The notes under the pieces: generated by a model
What the model was told of the DNA's origin: nothing
Seen by the model: only the letters and a program-made list of their open reading frames with translations
Databases searched by the model: none
Made by a program: the position numbers and the translations under genes
Assembly (NCBI RefSeq): GCF_002270355.1
Contig: NZ_NJFZ01000012.1
Coordinates: 1-64,000, forward strand
Length of the DNA stretch: 64,000 nt
DNA from: Flectobacillus sp. BAB-3569
GTDB taxonomy: Bacteria; Bacteroidota; Bacteroidia; Cytophagales; Spirosomataceae
Direction: 5' to 3'
Shown here: in pieces, positions 2,259 through 61,673 of the stretch
Layout: the number at the start of each line of letters is the position of its first letter
How positions within the stretch are numbered: the first letter of the stretch is position 1

Positions 2259-4811
2259 TTAATTTTTAATTTCGATACTTCTCCCTCCTCTTCCATTAGG
2301 AGTAAACACCTTTAATTTGATTGTTCCTTTCTCCGAAATTGGCTCAGTGTATAACTTGCTTTGTACTGTAGGTTCGGTTCCATCTATAGTATAGCGAATT
2401 TCAAATGAAGGCATCTGGATATTGGCATATACCTTACCATTTTCCACTTTTGCACCAGCCGTAGGAATTCTAAACTGATAGCCTCCCGATAATGCCTCTA
2501 TTTTAGGAAGTTCTCTTTGCGAAATCGTATTTACAAACACATTCCAAGCTTCTTGATATTGCTTTTTGGACAACTGAGTATCGGCAGTTTGCGCCCATTG
2601 AGGGTCAGGAGCCCAAGCTCTTTCTACCAATCCTAGCATTTTTGGCAGCAACATATATTCCAATCTTTCTGGTGACTTAACATTTTCACTCCAAAGCAAA
2701 CCTTGTATGCCTACGATATTACTTTTCCCAAAATCTGTTAGTCTGTCTTTACCAATAAAATAACTTTGCTCAATCGGATTTCCTCTTCTGTCCTCTGTTG
2801 AATTTTTGAAATAATCAAAAGGGATAAAATAAAATGGCTTATCAACATCCACAAAACCACCCCAGTAATAGCCAGGCTCTTCGTAAGTTTTTTGGTATGA
2901 CAAATCAAAATACATATTGCTGACACAAGATAAGACCACTTTATAGCCTGCATTTGCCAAGCGATATGGTAAATCTTCATTACCCCAACCAATCATATTA
3001 TTCCAAACATTTACCTGAAAACCTTCATTGGCCAAACGAGGATTAGGAATCATCGTTTTTTGTCCCATCAATTGCGTTTTACGCATGGCGATTTCTTCCC
3101 AACCAGACAAAAACAGCCCTTTCTTTTTCAAGAATGTGTTGATTTTCCCAAAATAGTAATACCATAAATCATCGATATTGTCAACCGTTGGGTCTGCATT
3201 TACCAACGCCTGACAAAGTGGTGACTGTTCCCAAACACCAGCAGGCACTTCGTCTCCACCAAAGTGGATAGTTGTCAATGGTGCGCCAGCGTCTTTGTAC
3301 ATAGCAATAATTTCGTCGGTTACTTTTTCGAGAAAAGTGTACACTGATGGACGAGCTACACAAATAACATTGTCCGTCCAAAGTTGAGCTGTACGATATT
3401 GTGACTTGTCATCTGGGTCACGAAGCCAATATTTTTCGGCTTCTTCCATATTTCCTTGCGCTTTATATTTCTCATATCGAGCGTCCATAGCTTTGATAGA
3501 AGCACGGGCATGCCCAGGAGATTCCACTTCAGGAATGATTTGAATATGTCGCTCGGTGGCATATTTCAAGATATCAATAAACTCGGCTCTGCTATAAAAA
3601 CCACTTCCTGAACTTTGTCCAACATTTGGACCAGCCCCGAATGATGCAGGAAGAAAGTTTTTGCTATCTAAGGAATGTCCACGATTGGCACCGACTGTTG
3701 TTAATTCAGGTAAACCAGTGATTTCTAATCGCCAGCCTTCATCGTCGATAAAGTGTAAATGCAGTACATTTAGTTTGTAGGTTGACATTAAGTCCAAAAC
3801 TCGCTTTAGCTCGGCAGGTTTTTGGAAATTTCTTGCCACATCCAGCATCAAACTTCTAAAACCAAAACGAGGAGCATCTTCTACCTTCAAACATGGAATC
3901 TGGATTTTTTCCACGCTATTTTTCCAAACTGCCACAGGAAATAAGTTCTTAAGCGATTGAATAGCATAAAAAGCTCCTTTTTTGCTTGAAGCACTAATGG
4001 TGATTTGTGTTGGAGCAACAATCAAATGATATGCTTCTTCTGCCAAGTCTGCTTGCTTTTTAAATACAATTGCATTGGTACTTGCCTGAGAAGTTTCTGA
4101 TAATTTTTTACCTAAAACCTTTTGCAAATCCTCCTGAAAATAATTGATTTCATGTTGCCATTCTGAGGGTGCAACCATAGAAGTTGTGGCATTTACCTCA
4201 AAGTTTCCATTGCTTTTTTGATAAAATTGTGGCGTTGGAAAAATCGGGGGCAAATCACTAGCATTGAGTGGATGAATTAAGGTATTTTTCTCATACAATT
4301 GTGCAGAGGTCAAATAGCCAACTTTATCCTCTGTAGGAGCAATTACTTTGTATTTCTGAATCGTTTTTCCTTCCTCAGGCTTTTGCTCGTTGACCCAATA
4401 TAAGCCAAATGGTGCATCAGCAATATTGACAAAAATTTCGGAAGAGATAAAGCTAATATCTAATGTCTTCCCAGCTTCAAGGCCAGCAAAATTAGCTTTG
4501 GGACTCAATCTAAAAATATCTCCATTGACATGCTCAATCGAAACATTTGATGAAATAGCATTAGGGTCAATATCTCGGATATAGTTAAAATACAAACTCC
4601 AACCTGATTTTGGGAGTGCTTGTTTGCCTGTATTTTTTAGGGTAAAAACAGAGACATACTGTCTCTTTCCTTCAAAAGCATTATCGGTAACTTTCCACGA
4701 AATCTCTAGTTGTTCCGAATTAAAAAGAGGTACCTTTTTTTGCGCTTTTCCTTCTATACACATCGTAAATAGAAGCGAAAAAAGCAGCCAAGTCATTGAT
4801 ATTTTTTTCAT
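2259..4811 (-). CDS. Beta-N-acetylhexosaminidase, glycoside hydrolase family 20
   Basis: 850 aa with an N-terminal signal peptide ending near GKAQ (residue 24). Order of parts: a chitobiase/hexosaminidase N-terminal beta-sandwich (about 30-165), a GH20b-like domain (about 185-315), the GH20 TIM barrel (about 315-700), and a C-terminal Ig-like domain with a YTIDGTEPT motif. Catalytic Asp520-Glu521 lie in IHFGGDEV, the family signature; LHFIDDEGWRLEI near residue 353 is a further barrel motif. GH20 enzymes release terminal GlcNAc or GalNAc from glycans, chitin oligomers or peptidoglycan fragments by substrate-assisted catalysis. Here it probably acts in the periplasm or at the cell surface. No SusC/D-type genes are nearby. 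Confidence 0.95.
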   Translation of the reverse strand: MKKISMTWLLFSLLFTMCIEGKAQKKVPLFNSEQLEISWKVTDNAFEGKRQYVSVFTLKNTGKQALPKSGWSLYFNYIRDIDPNAISSNVSIEHVNGDIFRLSPKANFAGLEAGKTLDISFISSEIFVNIADAPFGLYWVNEQKPEEGKTIQKYKVIAPTEDKVGYLTSAQLYEKNTLIHPLNASDLPPIFPTPQFYQKSNGNFEVNATTSMVAPSEWQHEINYFQEDLQKVLGKKLSETSQASTNAIVFKKQADLAEEAYHLIVAPTQITISASSKKGAFYAIQSLKNLFPVAVWKNSVEKIQIPCLKVEDAPRFGFRSLMLDVARNFQKPAELKRVLDLMSTYKLNVLHLHFIDDEGWRLEITGLPELTTVGANRGHSLDSKNFLPASFGAGPNVGQSSGSGFYSRAEFIDILKYATERHIQIIPEVESPGHARASIKAMDARYEKYKAQGNMEEAEKYWLRDPDDKSQYRTAQLWTDNVICVARPSVYTFLEKVTDEIIAMYKDAGAPLTTIHFGGDEVPAGVWEQSPLCQALVNADPTVDNIDDLWYYYFGKINTFLKKKGLFLSGWEEIAMRKTQLMGQKTMIPNPRLANEGFQVNVWNNMIGWGNEDLPYRLANAGYKVVLSCVSNMYFDLSYQKTYEEPGYYWGGFVDVDKPFYFIPFDYFKNSTEDRRGNPIEQSYFIGKDRLTDFGKSNIVGIQGLLWSENVKSPERLEYMLLPKMLGLVERAWAPDPQWAQTADTQLSKKQYQEAWNVFVNTISQRELPKIEALSGGYQFRIPTAGAKVENGKVYANIQMPSFEIRYTIDGTEPTVQSKLYTEPISEKGTIKLKVFTPNGRGGRSIEIKN

Positions 4812-55675: not shown

Positions 55676-58251
55676 TTAGTAAAGTATTTGAACTGGGCCT
55701 AATAAGCCAGAGGGTTCGGGTTCCCAAGTCGATGGCTCTAGGGCTTTATATTGAATATCGACGATATTAATGTCCTTGAATTTCTTCCAGTTATGTGATT
55801 GTTTGTCGATATATCGCATTCTGTTGGCTGAAAGATTTTTTACTTCAATTTCTAAATGATTCTTTTCTTTTAACAACTTGGTAGGAATTGCTACTTGGAA
55901 CGGCAAACACCAAAGTGTTCCTAAACTTTGACCATTTAAGGTTACTTTTGCCGACTCACGAACATTACCAAGGTTCAAGTAAATTACGCTTTCTTTTACA
56001 GATTTCCAGTCAAAATCTACCGAATATTTGGCAGTTCCTGTAAAATATTGATTCGTAGAATCTCCAACGCTCGTCCAAGAGTCTAGTCTCGTAGTTTGGT
56101 AAGATTTTGGTAAAAATGGTTGCCCCTCCAAAAAGTCAACTTTCCATGTTCCATTGATTTCTACTTTATGCGTAGGTTGGGCAGTCAAATTTTTAGCAAT
56201 AATCTGAGCAGGTTTTTGTCAAAAAATTGAACAAAACGACTTTCTCCTGCCAAAAGGGCTAATTTGATTTCGGTATAAGCTCCTTTCTTATTTAAAGAGA
56301 TATATTCCTTTGTTTGATGGAGCGGGTCATATATTTCCACAGCTTCGCCCTTAGCACCCAGTAATAAATTACCTTCTTGAAACTTTTGAGAGAAATTACT
56401 GATAAAGTATAAGGTGCCTTTGCTATTTTTCTTCTTGATAAAAGAAATTCCTTTGCTCGCCATTTCCTCTGAGGTAATTCCAAGTTTTGCTAAGGCATTT
56501 GGAAGGGTAGAAATATCGGTAGTCTTTAAGCTTGCATTGAATTTGGCTAATAATGCTTCGTTTGATTCCCAATTTCTAAAGCCCGCAGTATTGGCAGGCA
56601 ATTGGTCAATAAACAAAATTGGAGCCCCCTGCTTTTGTAATGTTTGCAAGGCTTTGAGGGTTTCTGTAGGTAAATATTGTGTTTTCGGGATGACGATGGT
56701 CTTGTAAGTCAACCCTCCATGACTTTGTAGTTTTCCGTTTGCATATTTTAACTGAGTCAACTGTAAATCAGAAATATAGTCATAGTTGAAACCTTTCGAT
56801 TGTAAAAGTTTAGCAACTTGTCCAAACGAATTATTGAATAAAAGTTCCTGTGCATTGGCATGTACAGATAACAAATGTACATGTTCTTTTCCTCCCGCAT
56901 CGTGCCAAATATCGTGGATAGGGAAGTAGAGTAATACATCATTTTGTGCTTTTGATTCTTGCAAAAGTGCCTGACAACGAGCAATATACTCATTCAAAAA
57001 GTGTAATTCATTCCAGAAATGACTTTGTTGGTTGAAGTTAGTAGACGCATAAAATAACCAACCCGGATATGCATCTTGCGGAGGAGAGTAAGGCACACCA
57101 TGATAGAAAATGTGATTGATACCCGAAGTCAAAGACTCATCAATAATGGGTTTTACCTGTGATAGTGACACCTTAAAATGGTCTGCCAACCAAGTTGCGG
57201 TTTCTGAGCCCACAAATTTTTTATTTTCTGTATTAGCCGCTGAGGTGGCAAATTTTATTACCAAAGGATCTGGAATACCGTATCTAGTTTCTTCAAATTT
57301 GGGGTCTCTTCTGAAATTTGGAATGTCAAAATATTTTGTTCCAAAGTATTCAGTTTCTGGTACATCCGAAAGTGCATATAAGTCGAGCATATTGCCAGGA
57401 GAACCATGAGCTTCGTTTCTTGAAATTTTGCCCATTTTCCTAACGCCTTCTGCCCAAGTTTTAGTAAAGGCCTCTCTGCACAAGTCAGCAATCGTGGCAT
57501 TATAGTCACCAAAAATTCTTTTTTCGAGAAGATCTTTTGTTTCTGTTTTTGCCAAAGTACTCAAGTAAGGCGTTAAATCATATCCACGTCTTTTCTGAAA
57601 TTCCTCTAAAAAATTACTTGTCCAGTTGGCACCATACACTTCGTATGAGTCGTTGTAAAGCGCACGTACTCCATATTCTGGTGACTGGAATAGTGTTTGA
57701 AAAGGCTTCATATAATGTTCTAACGCTTCCTTGTTGAAGTGGTCGAGAACTAAACCTTCACCCCCGGGAGCGGCACGTTTGACTTTTTGTTTAGTCGGTA
57801 ATGCTCTGACGCTAGTTTTTCCATTTTCTGTAAAAACTTCAAAATATTTAGCTGCCTCATTTTCACTTACTTGCTTTCCGCCAAATGGCCAACCAGTACC
57901 CATGGTCATATCTATTCCCAATCCTAAGTTGTTGGCTTCTTTTACAGTAAATGCCAACATTTGATTCCATTTAGGACTCAAAAAATCTAGGTTGTTGGCG
58001 TCGTTTCCTTTTACACCATAAATCGGTATAATATGCAAACCGCCAAAGCCTGCTTGAGCATAATCTTGTAAGTTTTTACGGATACCTGCTTCATCTACTG
58101 CACTGCCCATCCACCACCAATACGCCCAAGGCTTATGCGTATCATACTTTTGTGCATTTGTAGTAAACATTCCAATCAGAAAAAAAGTTATCAGCAAACA
58201 AACCCTTCTAAAGTTGGCCAATCTTTGATTTTCTAATTTTGTAAAAGACAT
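55676..58251 (-). CDS. GH106-like glycosidase (alpha-L-rhamnosidase type), exported, frame broken
   Basis: About 858 aa if one base is added at the run at 56213-56217, giving FVQFFDKKPAQIIAKNLTAQPTHKV across the join. Signal peptide ends around FTTNAQ. Start used gives MSFTKLENQ; one at 58260 is also possible. Catalytic domain motifs: AYWWWMGSAVDEAGI, LHIIPIYGVKG, LGIDMTMGTGWPFGG, APGGEGLVLDHF, and a C-terminal beta-sandwich (NGTWKVDF, FTGTAKYSVDF, LGNVRESAKVTLNG). This is the GH106 pattern, whose members release L-rhamnose from pectic and other glycans. No transport genes of a utilisation locus are adjacent. Confidence 0.82.
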
Positions 58252-58576
58252 AATTTTCATTTTTGATATGATTATTTTAATTTTTTCAAGATACATAGAT
58301 AGAAAATAAAAACAACACAAGCATCCTGTAGCATACTGGAACTAAGATTAAAATCACATCTTTTGAAACAAGCTCAAATTATGGTTCTAAAGCTTGAGAA
58401 ATAAATAAATACAAAATACCGATTACATATTTAACGGAATATTTATTCTAGAAATTTTAGATATAAAATTGTTTTTTCTACTTTTATTGTACATATTTAG
58501 CACACAAAGAAAAATTATAGTTATTGCCATATCGAATTACCCATAAAATTTACAAATATACCCTTAAGATTATCCT
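58252..58576. other. Divergent intergenic region
   Basis: About 325 bp between the GH106-like gene (minus) and the aminotransferase (plus). It must carry both promoters. Very AT-rich; no clear consensus or hairpin seen. Confidence 0.45.
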
Positions 58577-59745
58577 ATGTTTGATGACTCAACTGTAAAT
58601 GTAGGCATCCTAAAAGAGCGTGCCTATAACTTACGCTGGGCGACAGTTCCTGAAGGCGTGATACCGTTAACCGCGGCGGATCCAGACTTCCCGAGTGCAC
58701 CACAAATAGCAGATGCCCTAACCAAGTTTATCAAAGACCGCTATTTATGTTATGGTCCACCCGAAGGACTTCCTCAGTTTAAAGAAAGTGTTGCCCAATT
58801 TTTTCACAACAAACGAAACGTTCCAGCCAAACCCGAATTTACCTTTCCTGTAGACAGTGCGGCTTTTGGAATTTATGTCATTTGCAAAGCCTTCCTTGAA
58901 AAAGGTGACGAGGCGATTATTTTTAACCCTGTTGATTTCCTTTTTAAATACTCAATTGAAACGGTTGGTGCCAGTGCCATTTCTTATGGTATTCCTCCAG
59001 GTCAAGAGTTTGTAGATTTTTGGGAGCTAGAAACCCTAATTACTCCCAAAACAAAATGATTTGCCTTTGCAATCCTCTTAATCCAACGGGCAAAGTTTTT
59101 ACTCCAGAGGAGTTAAGAATTTTGGGCGAGGTAGCGTGTAAGCACAATCTTATTATTTTATCAGATGAAATCTGGAGTGATATTGTGTATCAACCATACA
59201 CATTTACCAGTATTGCTAGTCTTGATGAAAGTATCCGTCAACGAACCATTATCGTGACGGGATATAGCAAATCCTATGGTTTAGCAGGTTTGCGCATTGG
59301 TTCGCTGGTGGCATTTAATCAAAACCACGCTGATACTCTTTTCAGAGCTTCTTTACATCAATCTACGGTTCATGGAGCAAACGTTTTAGGGCAGATTGCT
59401 GCAACCACTGCCTTAAACGAATGTGGACCTTGGCTAGAGGGCTTTATTCAGCATCTCCAACAGATGCGTGATTTATGTGTATCTGAACTCAATGCAAGTA
59501 AGGGGGTGTCATGTATCGCACCACAAGGTTGTTATGTCGCATTTGCAGATATTACAGGCACTGGAAAAACCAGCGCCGAAATACAAGCATACTTACTAGA
59601 AACAGCCAAAGTAGCAGTTGTTCCGGGTTTACCACAATGGTTTGGAACAGGAGCAGAGGGTTATATCAGGTTAAGTTTTGCCACATCTAATGGAATTCTT
59701 TCTAACGCACTTAATTATATAAAAACCGCACTTAATTACTTATGA
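58577..59745 (+). CDS. PLP-dependent aminotransferase class I/II (fold type I), frame broken
   Basis: About 389 aa if one A is added to the four-A run at 59053-59056, which joins ITPKTK to MICLCNPLNPTGKVF, the family motif. Start MFDDSTVNVGILKERAYNLRW. Catalytic Lys lies in TGYSKSYGLAGLR; the PLP-phosphate Arg/Ser region is GLRIG; the substrate Arg is in GYIRLSFA. The second piece also has its own ATG overlapping the TGA of the first (ATGA), so reinitiation could make two polypeptides. The reaction is amino transfer or C-S lysis of MalY type, not settled. It overlaps the next gene by 4 bp (ATGA at 59742). Confidence 0.82.
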
Positions 59746-61673
59746 AAGTTGTAATAATTGGTGGGGGAGTGGCTGGATTGTCACTTGGCCTGTTGTTAAA
59801 CAAACAAAATATTGAAGTAGTCATTAATGAAAAAATGACCGAATTTCATACCCGAGGTCACGCTTTTCTCATGCATCTCGACGGATGGTCTATCCTAGAA
59901 GAGCTGAGTGAAGGAAAAAATATTCCTCTACCGGGTATCGAAATTGGGGAATTTAATTTTAATAAAAGCAATGGAGAACCCGTAAAGCGTCAAAAGCTCA
60001 ATCTTTGGCGTTGTATTAGGAGAAAAGACTTAATTGCATTTTTGAATCAATTGATTCCTGAAGGACTTATCAAAACGGGTCGTGTTTTTTCACATTTTAT
60101 TTATGAAAATGGCAAGGCAGTTGCGGCTCAGTTCAGCAATGGAGAAATAGAGTATGGTGATATTTTTGTAGGTGCGGATGGCAGTAATTCGTCAGTTCGT
60201 GAAGCCATATTGGGATCTGTTGAGTTTACAAAAGTAGAAGTAAAGGAAGTTGTGGGTTTGTGTAAAAACGAAACTTTGGCCTCTAAGTTACCCAACGTAT
60301 TTACCAAATTTCAGAGCGATACCAGAGGCATAAGTTTTGGTATGATTCCTGTGTCAGCCTCTGATTTTGTTTGGTTTATGCAATATAATGCCGTAGAAGC
60401 AGATTGTTGTGACAAGTCAACACCTGAGCAATTAAAGGCTTTTTGTGATTTTCAATTGAGTGATTTTCCTCCAATTGTTAATGAATTGCTTGCTACCAAC
60501 GACTATTCAACGAGCTATATTTGGAATACAAGAGATTTTGGACTATTGCCTAAATTCCATGAAGGAAATGTCGTATTGATAGGCGATGCTGCCCATTTGG
60601 CTCTGCCATTTACGAGTGCAGGAACCACCAATGCCATCATCGATGCAAAAACATTGACAGATTTGTTGCTAAAAATTGGCAATTCTGAGTTGGCTTTTGA
60701 GCAATATTATGCCTCTCGTAAAGATGAGATTTCTAAACATATCTATTTGGGGAGAGAGTTAAAAGAGCTCTTTATGCACCCAGAAAAAATAGATGGTGAT
60801 AAAATGGTGGTACCGCTGATTTCTAAAAAAGAATCAGATGTTAAAGGAGATAAACCACTAAAGGTGCAATATTTTACCGACCCTATTTGTTCAACTTGCT
60901 GGGTGGTTCAACCGATGTTACGTAGGTTGAAATTGGAGTATGGTGAATATTTCGATATTGACTATCGTATGGGAGGACTTTTACCCTCCTGGACAGACTA
61001 TCAACGTGGACCAATTACTCAGCCTTCAGACGTTGCATCGCATTGGGAGGAAGTGTGCATGATTCATGGCATACCACTAGATGGAGATATTTGGTTAGAA
61101 GATCCACTGCCTTCATCTTATCCACCTTCTATCGCTTTTAAAGCAGCTCAGATGCAAGACGGAGACTTAGCCATTTTGTTTTTGAGAAGAATCAAAGAGA
61201 TGCTATTCTTAGAAAAAAAGAATATTGTAGATCTCAATTATTTAGAAAATGCAGCTTTTGAAGTAGGGCTAGATTCAGCCAAATTTATCAAAGATTACGA
61301 AACAAAAGCGCAAGAGGCATTTCGAAATGATTTGATTTTGGCACAAAATATGGAAGTTGGCGTATTCCCAACCTTGATTTTTACTAATCAAGACAACAAA
61401 ACAATTATTGCAAAAGGGTATCAAGAATATGAGTATTTCGAAGACATTATTCATCAATTAATTCCTAATGCACAGAAAAGAAATTTGAATACAGATCCTG
61501 TTTTCTTATTCAGTTGTTTTTCGACTATGACCAATAAAGAGTTTTCATTTTTGAGTGAAAAATCGGTAGAAGATACTGAAAAAACCTTGGACGATTTGTA
61601 CGAAAGAGGATACATTGACAAATTTGAGAGCAAAAATGGTATAATCTGGAAGAGTAAGTTAGCGGATTATTAA
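59742..61673 (+). CDS. FAD-dependent monooxygenase fused to DsbA-like domain and C-terminal winged helix
   Basis: 643 aa. Residues 1-360 are a flavin monooxygenase of the PHBH/TetX type: GGGVAG at 7-12, GADGSN near 145, GDAAHLALPFTSAG near 280 (second FAD motif). Residues 370-590 are a DsbA/YjbH-like thioredoxin fold with a CSTC pair (Cys383, Cys386) in FTDPICSTCWVVQP and VFPTLIFTN near 545. The last sixty residues (FSTMTNKEFSFLSEKSVEDTEKTLDDLYERGYID) look like a winged helix. Fused monooxygenase and dithiol domains are unusual. It is coupled to the aminotransferase by an ATGA overlap, so the two probably act on one pathway. Confidence 0.85.
   Translation: MKVVIIGGGVAGLSLGLLLNKQNIEVVINEKMTEFHTRGHAFLMHLDGWSILEELSEGKNIPLPGIEIGEFNFNKSNGEPVKRQKLNLWRCIRRKDLIAFLNQLIPEGLIKTGRVFSHFIYENGKAVAAQFSNGEIEYGDIFVGADGSNSSVREAILGSVEFTKVEVKEVVGLCKNETLASKLPNVFTKFQSDTRGISFGMIPVSASDFVWFMQYNAVEADCCDKSTPEQLKAFCDFQLSDFPPIVNELLATNDYSTSYIWNTRDFGLLPKFHEGNVVLIGDAAHLALPFTSAGTTNAIIDAKTLTDLLLKIGNSELAFEQYYASRKDEISKHIYLGRELKELFMHPEKIDGDKMVVPLISKKESDVKGDKPLKVQYFTDPICSTCWVVQPMLRRLKLEYGEYFDIDYRMGGLLPSWTDYQRGPITQPSDVASHWEEVCMIHGIPLDGDIWLEDPLPSSYPPSIAFKAAQMQDGDLAILFLRRIKEMLFLEKKNIVDLNYLENAAFEVGLDSAKFIKDYETKAQEAFRNDLILAQNMEVGVFPTLIFTNQDNKTIIAKGYQEYEYFEDIIHQLIPNAQKRNLNTDPVFLFSCFSTMTNKEFSFLSEKSVEDTEKTLDDLYERGYIDKFESKNGIIWKSKLADY

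Follow-up and report, generated by a model that had tools for sequence, protein, structure and literature searches.

A candidate three-part module of a PLP enzyme, a class A flavin monooxygenase and a YjbH-family protein in Bacteroidota

The window analysed here, a stretch of 64,000 nucleotides from Flectobacillus sp. BAB-3569, carries a PLP-enzyme gene (AT) followed directly by a gene that joins a class A FAD monooxygenase (FMO) and a YjbH-family protein in one chain (Table 1). Because the parts have been joined repeatedly in different layouts and their genes are tightly coupled, AT, FMO and YjbH very probably work together. We rate the chances as about even that they form a previously undescribed PLP/FMO/YjbH system, in which YjbH would serve as a dedicated thiol-redox oxygenase subunit outside Spx–ClpXP, present as a C-terminal fusion, an N-terminal fusion or an operon gene, and recruited at least twice independently.

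Table 1. Coordinates of the PLP-enzyme and fusion genes and of their parts in the window.
Feature	Position	Strand	Description and basis
AT gene, first piece	58577–59059	+	160 aa; PF00155; stops early at frameshift
AT gene, second piece	59020–59745	+	other frame; PF00155; homology from about 59044–59047
FMO–YjbH fusion gene	59742–61673	+	643 aa; ORF list, Pfam, alignments
Class A FAD monooxygenase (FMO) domain	59742–60821	+	residues 1–360 (to about 365); PF01494, 21-row alignment
Short linker	60822–60857	+	residues 361–372; variable among relatives (alignment, substitution counts)
Thioredoxin-like (DsbA-type) part of YjbH-family domain	60858–61457	+	residues ~373–572; PF13743, 6ghb alignment
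CSTC motif	60888–60899	+	residues 383–386; sequence and alignment
C-terminal winged-helix-like part of YjbH	61497–61661	+	residues ~586–640; 6ghb alignment to 637

Domain composition of the fusion protein

The open reading frame of the fusion, the position of its CSTC motif and the 4-nt ATGA overlap of its start with the upstream AT stop, all reported in the first-pass annotation, were borne out by the ORF list, the translation and the alignment. The FMO domain matched PF01494 (FAD_binding_3) at 68.1 bits against a Pfam cut-off of 22 and contains GGGVAG (residues 7–12), GADGS (144–148) and GDAAH (281–285), with PFTSAGTTNA standing three residues past GDAAH. Residues G7, G9, G12, D146, G147, G281 and D282 are invariant in all 21 rows of the FMO-domain alignment, window included. 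The PF01494 match combined with the GxGxxG, DG and GD motifs places the domain among the class A flavin monooxygenases, with predicted FAD binding and activity.

Its FAD-binding motifs and PF01494 match are shared with PHBH-type enzymes such as 6-hydroxynicotinate 3-monooxygenase, salicylate hydroxylase, HpxO and TetX; it differs from them in the PFTSAGTTNA-like stretch behind GDAAH and in its fusion to YjbH. None of the best 25 of 88 NCBIfam matches of the fusion rose above its cut-off, and a tetracycline destructase (TetX) assignment was rejected, NF033476 reaching 47 bits, far under the cut-off of 550. Solved-structure relatives of the FMO come from a single-sequence search, and a profile of the 21 FMO domains gave no match against solved structures at E 1e-25.

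The remainder of the chain matched Thioredoxin_5 (PF13743) at residues 377–567 with 160.3 bits against a Pfam cut-off of 27. Residues 24–291 of the 298 in the chain of PDB 6ghb (Geobacillus YjbH; UPF0413 protein GK0824, 298 aa) align to fusion residues 370–637 at E 5.8e-45. Because 6ghb aligns across both the DsbA-like and the winged-helix parts, these belong to one known family, and by alignment the chain is an FMO plus a complete YjbH/SpxH-type protein (residues 370–643), in two parts. The gene had been described as a triple fusion; the joining in one chain is real, but three separate domains are ruled out, since the YjbH alignment covers the last two. The likeness to YjbH/SpxH (PF13743; GK0824, 6ghb/6gho) takes in the near-full-length alignment, the thioredoxin-like part, CxxCW and the C-terminal part, whereas the protein here is fused behind an FMO and has W-x-x-QP in place of the WGIEP of standalone relatives.

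The winged-helix-like part showed its helix–strand order in the best-scored stretch of a structure prediction that was otherwise poor (mean pLDDT of the fusion 36.8, five-row alignment); the AT prediction, from a four-row alignment, was likewise poor (mean pLDDT 53.1). A winged helix at the C-terminus would suit control of the operon by a sensor of redox state or of a ligand, a role proposed earlier for this protein, and in two loci AT is preceded by genes for a histidine kinase and a small response regulator (L068, 8801–10704, by Pfam; L078, 2565–4939, by eye). The winged-helix-like part nevertheless sits inside the YjbH-aligned stretch and the FAD-binding motifs are invariant across the alignment, so the proposal is not supported and a sensor of this kind is very unlikely.

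The upstream PLP-enzyme gene

A PLP-enzyme gene does lie directly upstream of the fusion, as the label 'aminotransferase' had implied, but it is not intact in the window and occupies two ORFs in different frames. Both pieces match PF00155 above the Pfam cut-off, and the second carries the NPLNPTGK, SDEIWSD and SKSYGLAGLRIG motifs. The apparent frameshift near 59057, whether genuine or an error of the draft, amounts to a length difference of one base within an A-rich stretch. Relatives have a single AT ORF of 386–410 aa in the matching place (that of L067 is cut by the contig end), including two relatives with an intact AT whose fusion protein is 97% identical to that of the window. No second AT copy was found in the window's genome at E 1e-75. 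A neighbouring gene on the minus strand (55676–58320) is likewise split, into 55676–56188 and 56185–58320, and corresponds to one 873-aa ORF in L006; together with the AT break, this amounts to two frameshifts within about 3 kb of the window.

In an alignment of 25 intact AT proteins, with the window and L067 left out, every row shares (Y/F)N-x-RW, IP(L/F)TAADPD, (D/N)P-x-DFLF and SDEIW(S/A)DI, and every row has the PLP lysine motif SK-x4-AG. AT is a class I/II PLP enzyme whose best profile matches include the PatB/MalY C-S lyases (TIGR04350) and GntC-like enzymes (NF041364), but it lies under both cut-offs. The intact AT of L011 scored 220.6 bits on TIGR04350, below the cut-off of 340, against 391 bits for the true PatB of the window's genome, and membership of the PatB C-S lyase family was rejected on this score; C-S lyase chemistry of AT is not established for the same reason. 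The motifs (D/N)P-x-DFLF, SDEIW and AG(L/F)R of AT contrast with IPVYGPF, SDEIH and AGLG in the genome's own PatB, which reads SDEIHCDL at the SDEIW(S/A)DI position. AT thus reads, from its motifs and scores, as a separate PLP-enzyme subfamily.

Distribution of the fusion and coupling to AT

The fusion was found in all five genomes of the genus, the window's own included, and in 8 of 222 genomes of the family (Spirosomataceae); its occurrence among relatives is far beyond chance. With the FMO part as query, matches were obtained in 6/390 genomes of the order sample (three with fusion-length frames), 13/395 of the class sample (11 fusion-length frames, two solo) and 4/395 of the phylum sample (two fused), these samples overlapping in genomes and having the window's own among them. 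The set examined comprised 19 proteins from 19 genomes, window included. Among named relatives, Flectobacillus longus (L006) comes closest, with 97% identity over the fusion.

AT stands directly upstream on the same strand at 19 of 19 fusion loci, counting the broken AT of the window and the AT of L067. The two genes overlap by 4 nt at 16 loci and by 1 nt in L076, and are separated by 2 nt in L067 and by 51 nt in L053. The CxxC is kept in 17 of the 19 proteins, L073 and L074 having lost the second Cys (CSAS). Behind the CxxC, W-x-x-QP follows in 19/19 fusions and WGIEP in 29/30 standalone YjbH relatives. The earlier view of an uncommon, real architecture coupled to a PLP enzyme is supported, and the PMC literature searched yielded no account of the fusion, in agreement with the claim that no such system had been described.

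These data also bear on whether faulty sequencing or assembly produced the fusion. The window does contain the AT frameshift and the split neighbouring gene, and relatives with the two halves as separate genes, which the first-pass annotation had named as grounds for doubting the join near codon 365, do exist. The fusion nevertheless stands as a full-length open frame in 19 genomes, whose FMO parts are as little as 44% identical to that of the window, and comparison of the window with its closest relatives shows strong purifying selection on both sides of the join. An error at the join is ruled out by the 19 genomes, and we assign an artefactual origin of the fusion a negligible probability.

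Beyond the phylum, the survey covered plasmid records and near-exact patterns, with distant fusions outside its reach. Near-exact peptide patterns against 84,980 prokaryote genomes yielded four loci, all of this fusion group, and the two fusions used as queries against plasmid records gave no single place covering 80% of the query. AT retrieved many general PLP enzymes from the plasmid records, the best at 38.9% identity, from Persicobacter, adjoining an FMO. No recurrent gene neighbours besides AT, FMO and YjbH were seen over the fusion and solo-FMO loci viewed. PADLOC returned no match for the fusion or an intact AT, and an anti-phage defence role was rejected on that basis. In L082, the opposite strand upstream of AT (2867–4670) encodes an old-yellow-enzyme family protein (PF00724) and a regulator of the cyclic-nucleotide-binding type.

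Alternative arrangements of the three parts

A reversed fusion was found in one genome (G734, locus L103), where a 657-aa YjbH–FMO protein with PF13743 at residues 10–189 and PF01494 at 299–628 is followed by AT after 4 nt. The order FMO then AT recurs in L083, in L084 and on a Persicobacter plasmid (L085). In the family around G1078, FMO matches occurred in 94 of 271 genomes, in frames of 362–408 aa, none of them fused. Twenty-six loci of this family were viewed (L083, L084 and L113–L136), L113–L124 being the best 12 matches with 1.5 kb on each side and L125–L136 chosen to spread over identity; AT lies directly downstream of FMO in all 26.

Four of these loci (L127, L134, L135 and L136) carry a separate yjbH upstream of FMO–AT, and its products are about 48% identical to the YjbH domain of the window. 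Tryptophanase, called by NCBIfam in L083 and by blastp elsewhere, is encoded directly upstream of FMO–AT in 15 loci (L083, L084, L113, L115–L124, L131 and L132), and the remaining seven have neither gene. Tryptophanase there occupies the slot where the four other loci carry yjbH. Solo FMOs of the fusion clade (L049, L050, L051, L072 and L078) also follow AT. AT–FMO pairs without an adjoining YjbH are thus common (L049, L050, L051, L078, L085 and 22/26 loci of the G1078 family), which suggests that YjbH is not always needed or can act in trans.

Phylogenetic analysis of the YjbH and FMO parts

In a YjbH tree of 19 fusion and 30 standalone sequences without L103, one branch separates the two sets (support 100/99); with L103 added, it groups with the 19 fusions (100/99). 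When the four operon YjbHs were included, they joined the standalone proteins (99/100), apart from the fusions, and in that tree the fusions are no longer one side of a branch (two changes), owing to the very long L103 row. The L103 YjbH forms a very long branch, placed among the fusion YjbHs in one tree and apart in another; because of the first placement, it need not represent a separate recruitment. Since the separate operon YjbHs belong to another YjbH branch than the fusions, the trees indicate that YjbH has been tied to AT–FMO in at least two separate events, and it is joined to FMO in both orders.

In the FMO tree, solo FMOs nest among fused ones and the starred branches force at least three changes; starred support was obtained for L072 and L050/L051, and L049 and L078 each join a single fusion with support under 95/80. 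This nesting, together with the separation of fusion from standalone YjbHs, points to one likely C-terminal fusion followed by repeated loss of the YjbH part. Downstream of the solo FMO of L072, at about 4082–4408, lie remnants about 75% identical to residues 1–29 and 216–270 of the YjbH part of L074, and by these remnants L072 is a half-done loss of the YjbH part. Its nearest kin, L073 and L074, already have CSAS in place of the CxxC, and each of the three loci also has a neighbouring gene for a standalone YjbH with CSSC.

In comparisons of the window with L010/L011, dN was 0.022–0.028 for FMO and 0.003–0.006 for the YjbH part at dS of 0.93–1.26; as dS is near saturation, the corresponding dN/dS ratios of about 0.02–0.03 and 0.003–0.005 are rough. 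The AT pieces gave dN of 0.014–0.054 and dN/dS of about 0.03–0.06. Against L012, L013 and L018, dS was saturated and dN was again lower in the YjbH part. The YjbH part is thus the least changing part between the window and its nearest kin.

This conservation bears on a reading in which AT–FMO would form a route for aromatic amino acids (for instance transamination plus ring hydroxylation of a compound derived from tryptophan or tyrosine) and YjbH would be a stabilising, non-catalytic passenger. That many FMO matches are aromatic hydroxylases is consistent with such a route, as is the tryptophanase that precedes FMO–AT in more than half of the G1078-family loci, and the many pairs without YjbH and the Cys loss in L073/L074 suit a passenger. 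Set against these are the slow change of the YjbH part near the window, the CxxC kept in nearly all fusions and the joining of YjbH to the AT–FMO pair in three layouts, and we regard a passenger role as rather unlikely.

Proposed function of the YjbH part

YjbH is known mainly as an Spx protease adaptor in Firmicutes, and Spx carries an N-terminal CxxC. The genes described here link a full YjbH-type protein to an oxygenase, in several layouts, and a PF03960 (ArsC/Spx) search found no CxxC-bearing Spx-type protein in the window's genome, its only match having a single-Cys start, PNCDTV, without CxxC. This makes a YjbH role beyond Spx control testable, and one two-part protein suffices for testing it. 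Because the YjbH part changes least and the only ArsC/Spx match has no CxxC, classical Spx adaptor work of the fusion YjbH part appears unlikely.

In a broader adaptor role, the YjbH part would deliver a client (FMO, AT or some stress regulator) to ClpXP depending on redox state, while AT–FMO make or degrade a metabolite. The near end-to-end alignment with Geobacillus YjbH fits such a role, published work assigns YjbH a protease-adaptor function towards Spx (PMC7253607), and PLSDB names one standalone YjbH relative a ClpXP adapter. Against it, the sole PF03960 protein of the genome has no N-terminal CxxC, and relatives at about 30% identity over the YjbH part are also present in haloarchaea (plasmid records), an occurrence that makes Spx adaptor work unlikely as the family's sole role; moreover, a client carrying its own adaptor would be prone to destruction. 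We therefore consider an adaptor function improbable. In Listeria, the Cys motif of YjbH is described as needed for the nitrosative stress response and for some protein contacts (PMC7253607).

Our reading of the whole is tentative and, in our estimate, falls a little short of even probability: a three-part cytosolic enzyme module of Bacteroidota made up of AT, a class A FMO and a YjbH that is tethered to FMO as thiol-redox partner of the oxygenase pathway. AT would transaminate an amino-acid-type substrate or cleave it by C-S beta-elimination, and FMO would oxygenate AT's compound or AT's product. The CxxC of YjbH may reduce or trap an intermediate reactive towards thiols (a sulfenate, a mixed disulfide or a quinone-like species) or keep pathway thiols reduced. 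The YjbH part would then partner an enzyme rather than act as an adaptor for Spx, and the module could serve in breakdown or detoxification of a thiol-reactive compound, either aromatic or sulfur-containing. As first suggested for this locus, a combination of thiol, flavin and PLP chemistry is plausible. The retained CxxC, AT upstream of every fusion, the reversed fusion with its AT and the separate yjbH–FMO–AT operons argue for the module; the common YjbH-free AT–FMO pairs, the two fusions without the second Cys, the restriction of the reversed fusion to one genome and the broken AT of the window argue against it. The analysis also names a PLP-enzyme subfamily and an FMO subfamily that go together.

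Neighbours of standalone YjbH proteins

The argument from quinone and thiol stress rests on the neighbours of standalone YjbHs. Standalone Bacteroidota YjbHs resemble the fusion part, the paralogue in the window's own genome (L002) being 52% identical, but they fall on the other side of the tree and differ in context. An HxlR-type gene (HxlR being the Pfam name of what we take to be DUF24) lies upstream on the opposite strand at 25 of 27 standalone loci, L002 included, by phmmer, with three tested by Pfam; the 27 loci are part of the standalone matches of the family search plus the genus, viewed within 1.5 kb. At L023 and L027, the standalone YjbH gene and the HxlR-type gene are separated by a further gene. 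In the ORF lists of the fusion loci, we noticed no HxlR gene next to any fusion. In B. subtilis, the MarR/DUF24 regulators HypR, YodB and CatR are described as sensing HOCl, quinones and diamide through an N-terminal Cys (PMC6943732), and the title of a reference cited there names HxlR as a DUF24 member. Standalone YjbH and its HxlR-type regulator are likely a thiol-stress pair of their own. The haloarchaeal YjbH-family genes L109 and L112 adjoin annotated glutathione S-transferase genes in both records, and also AzlC/AzlD transporters.
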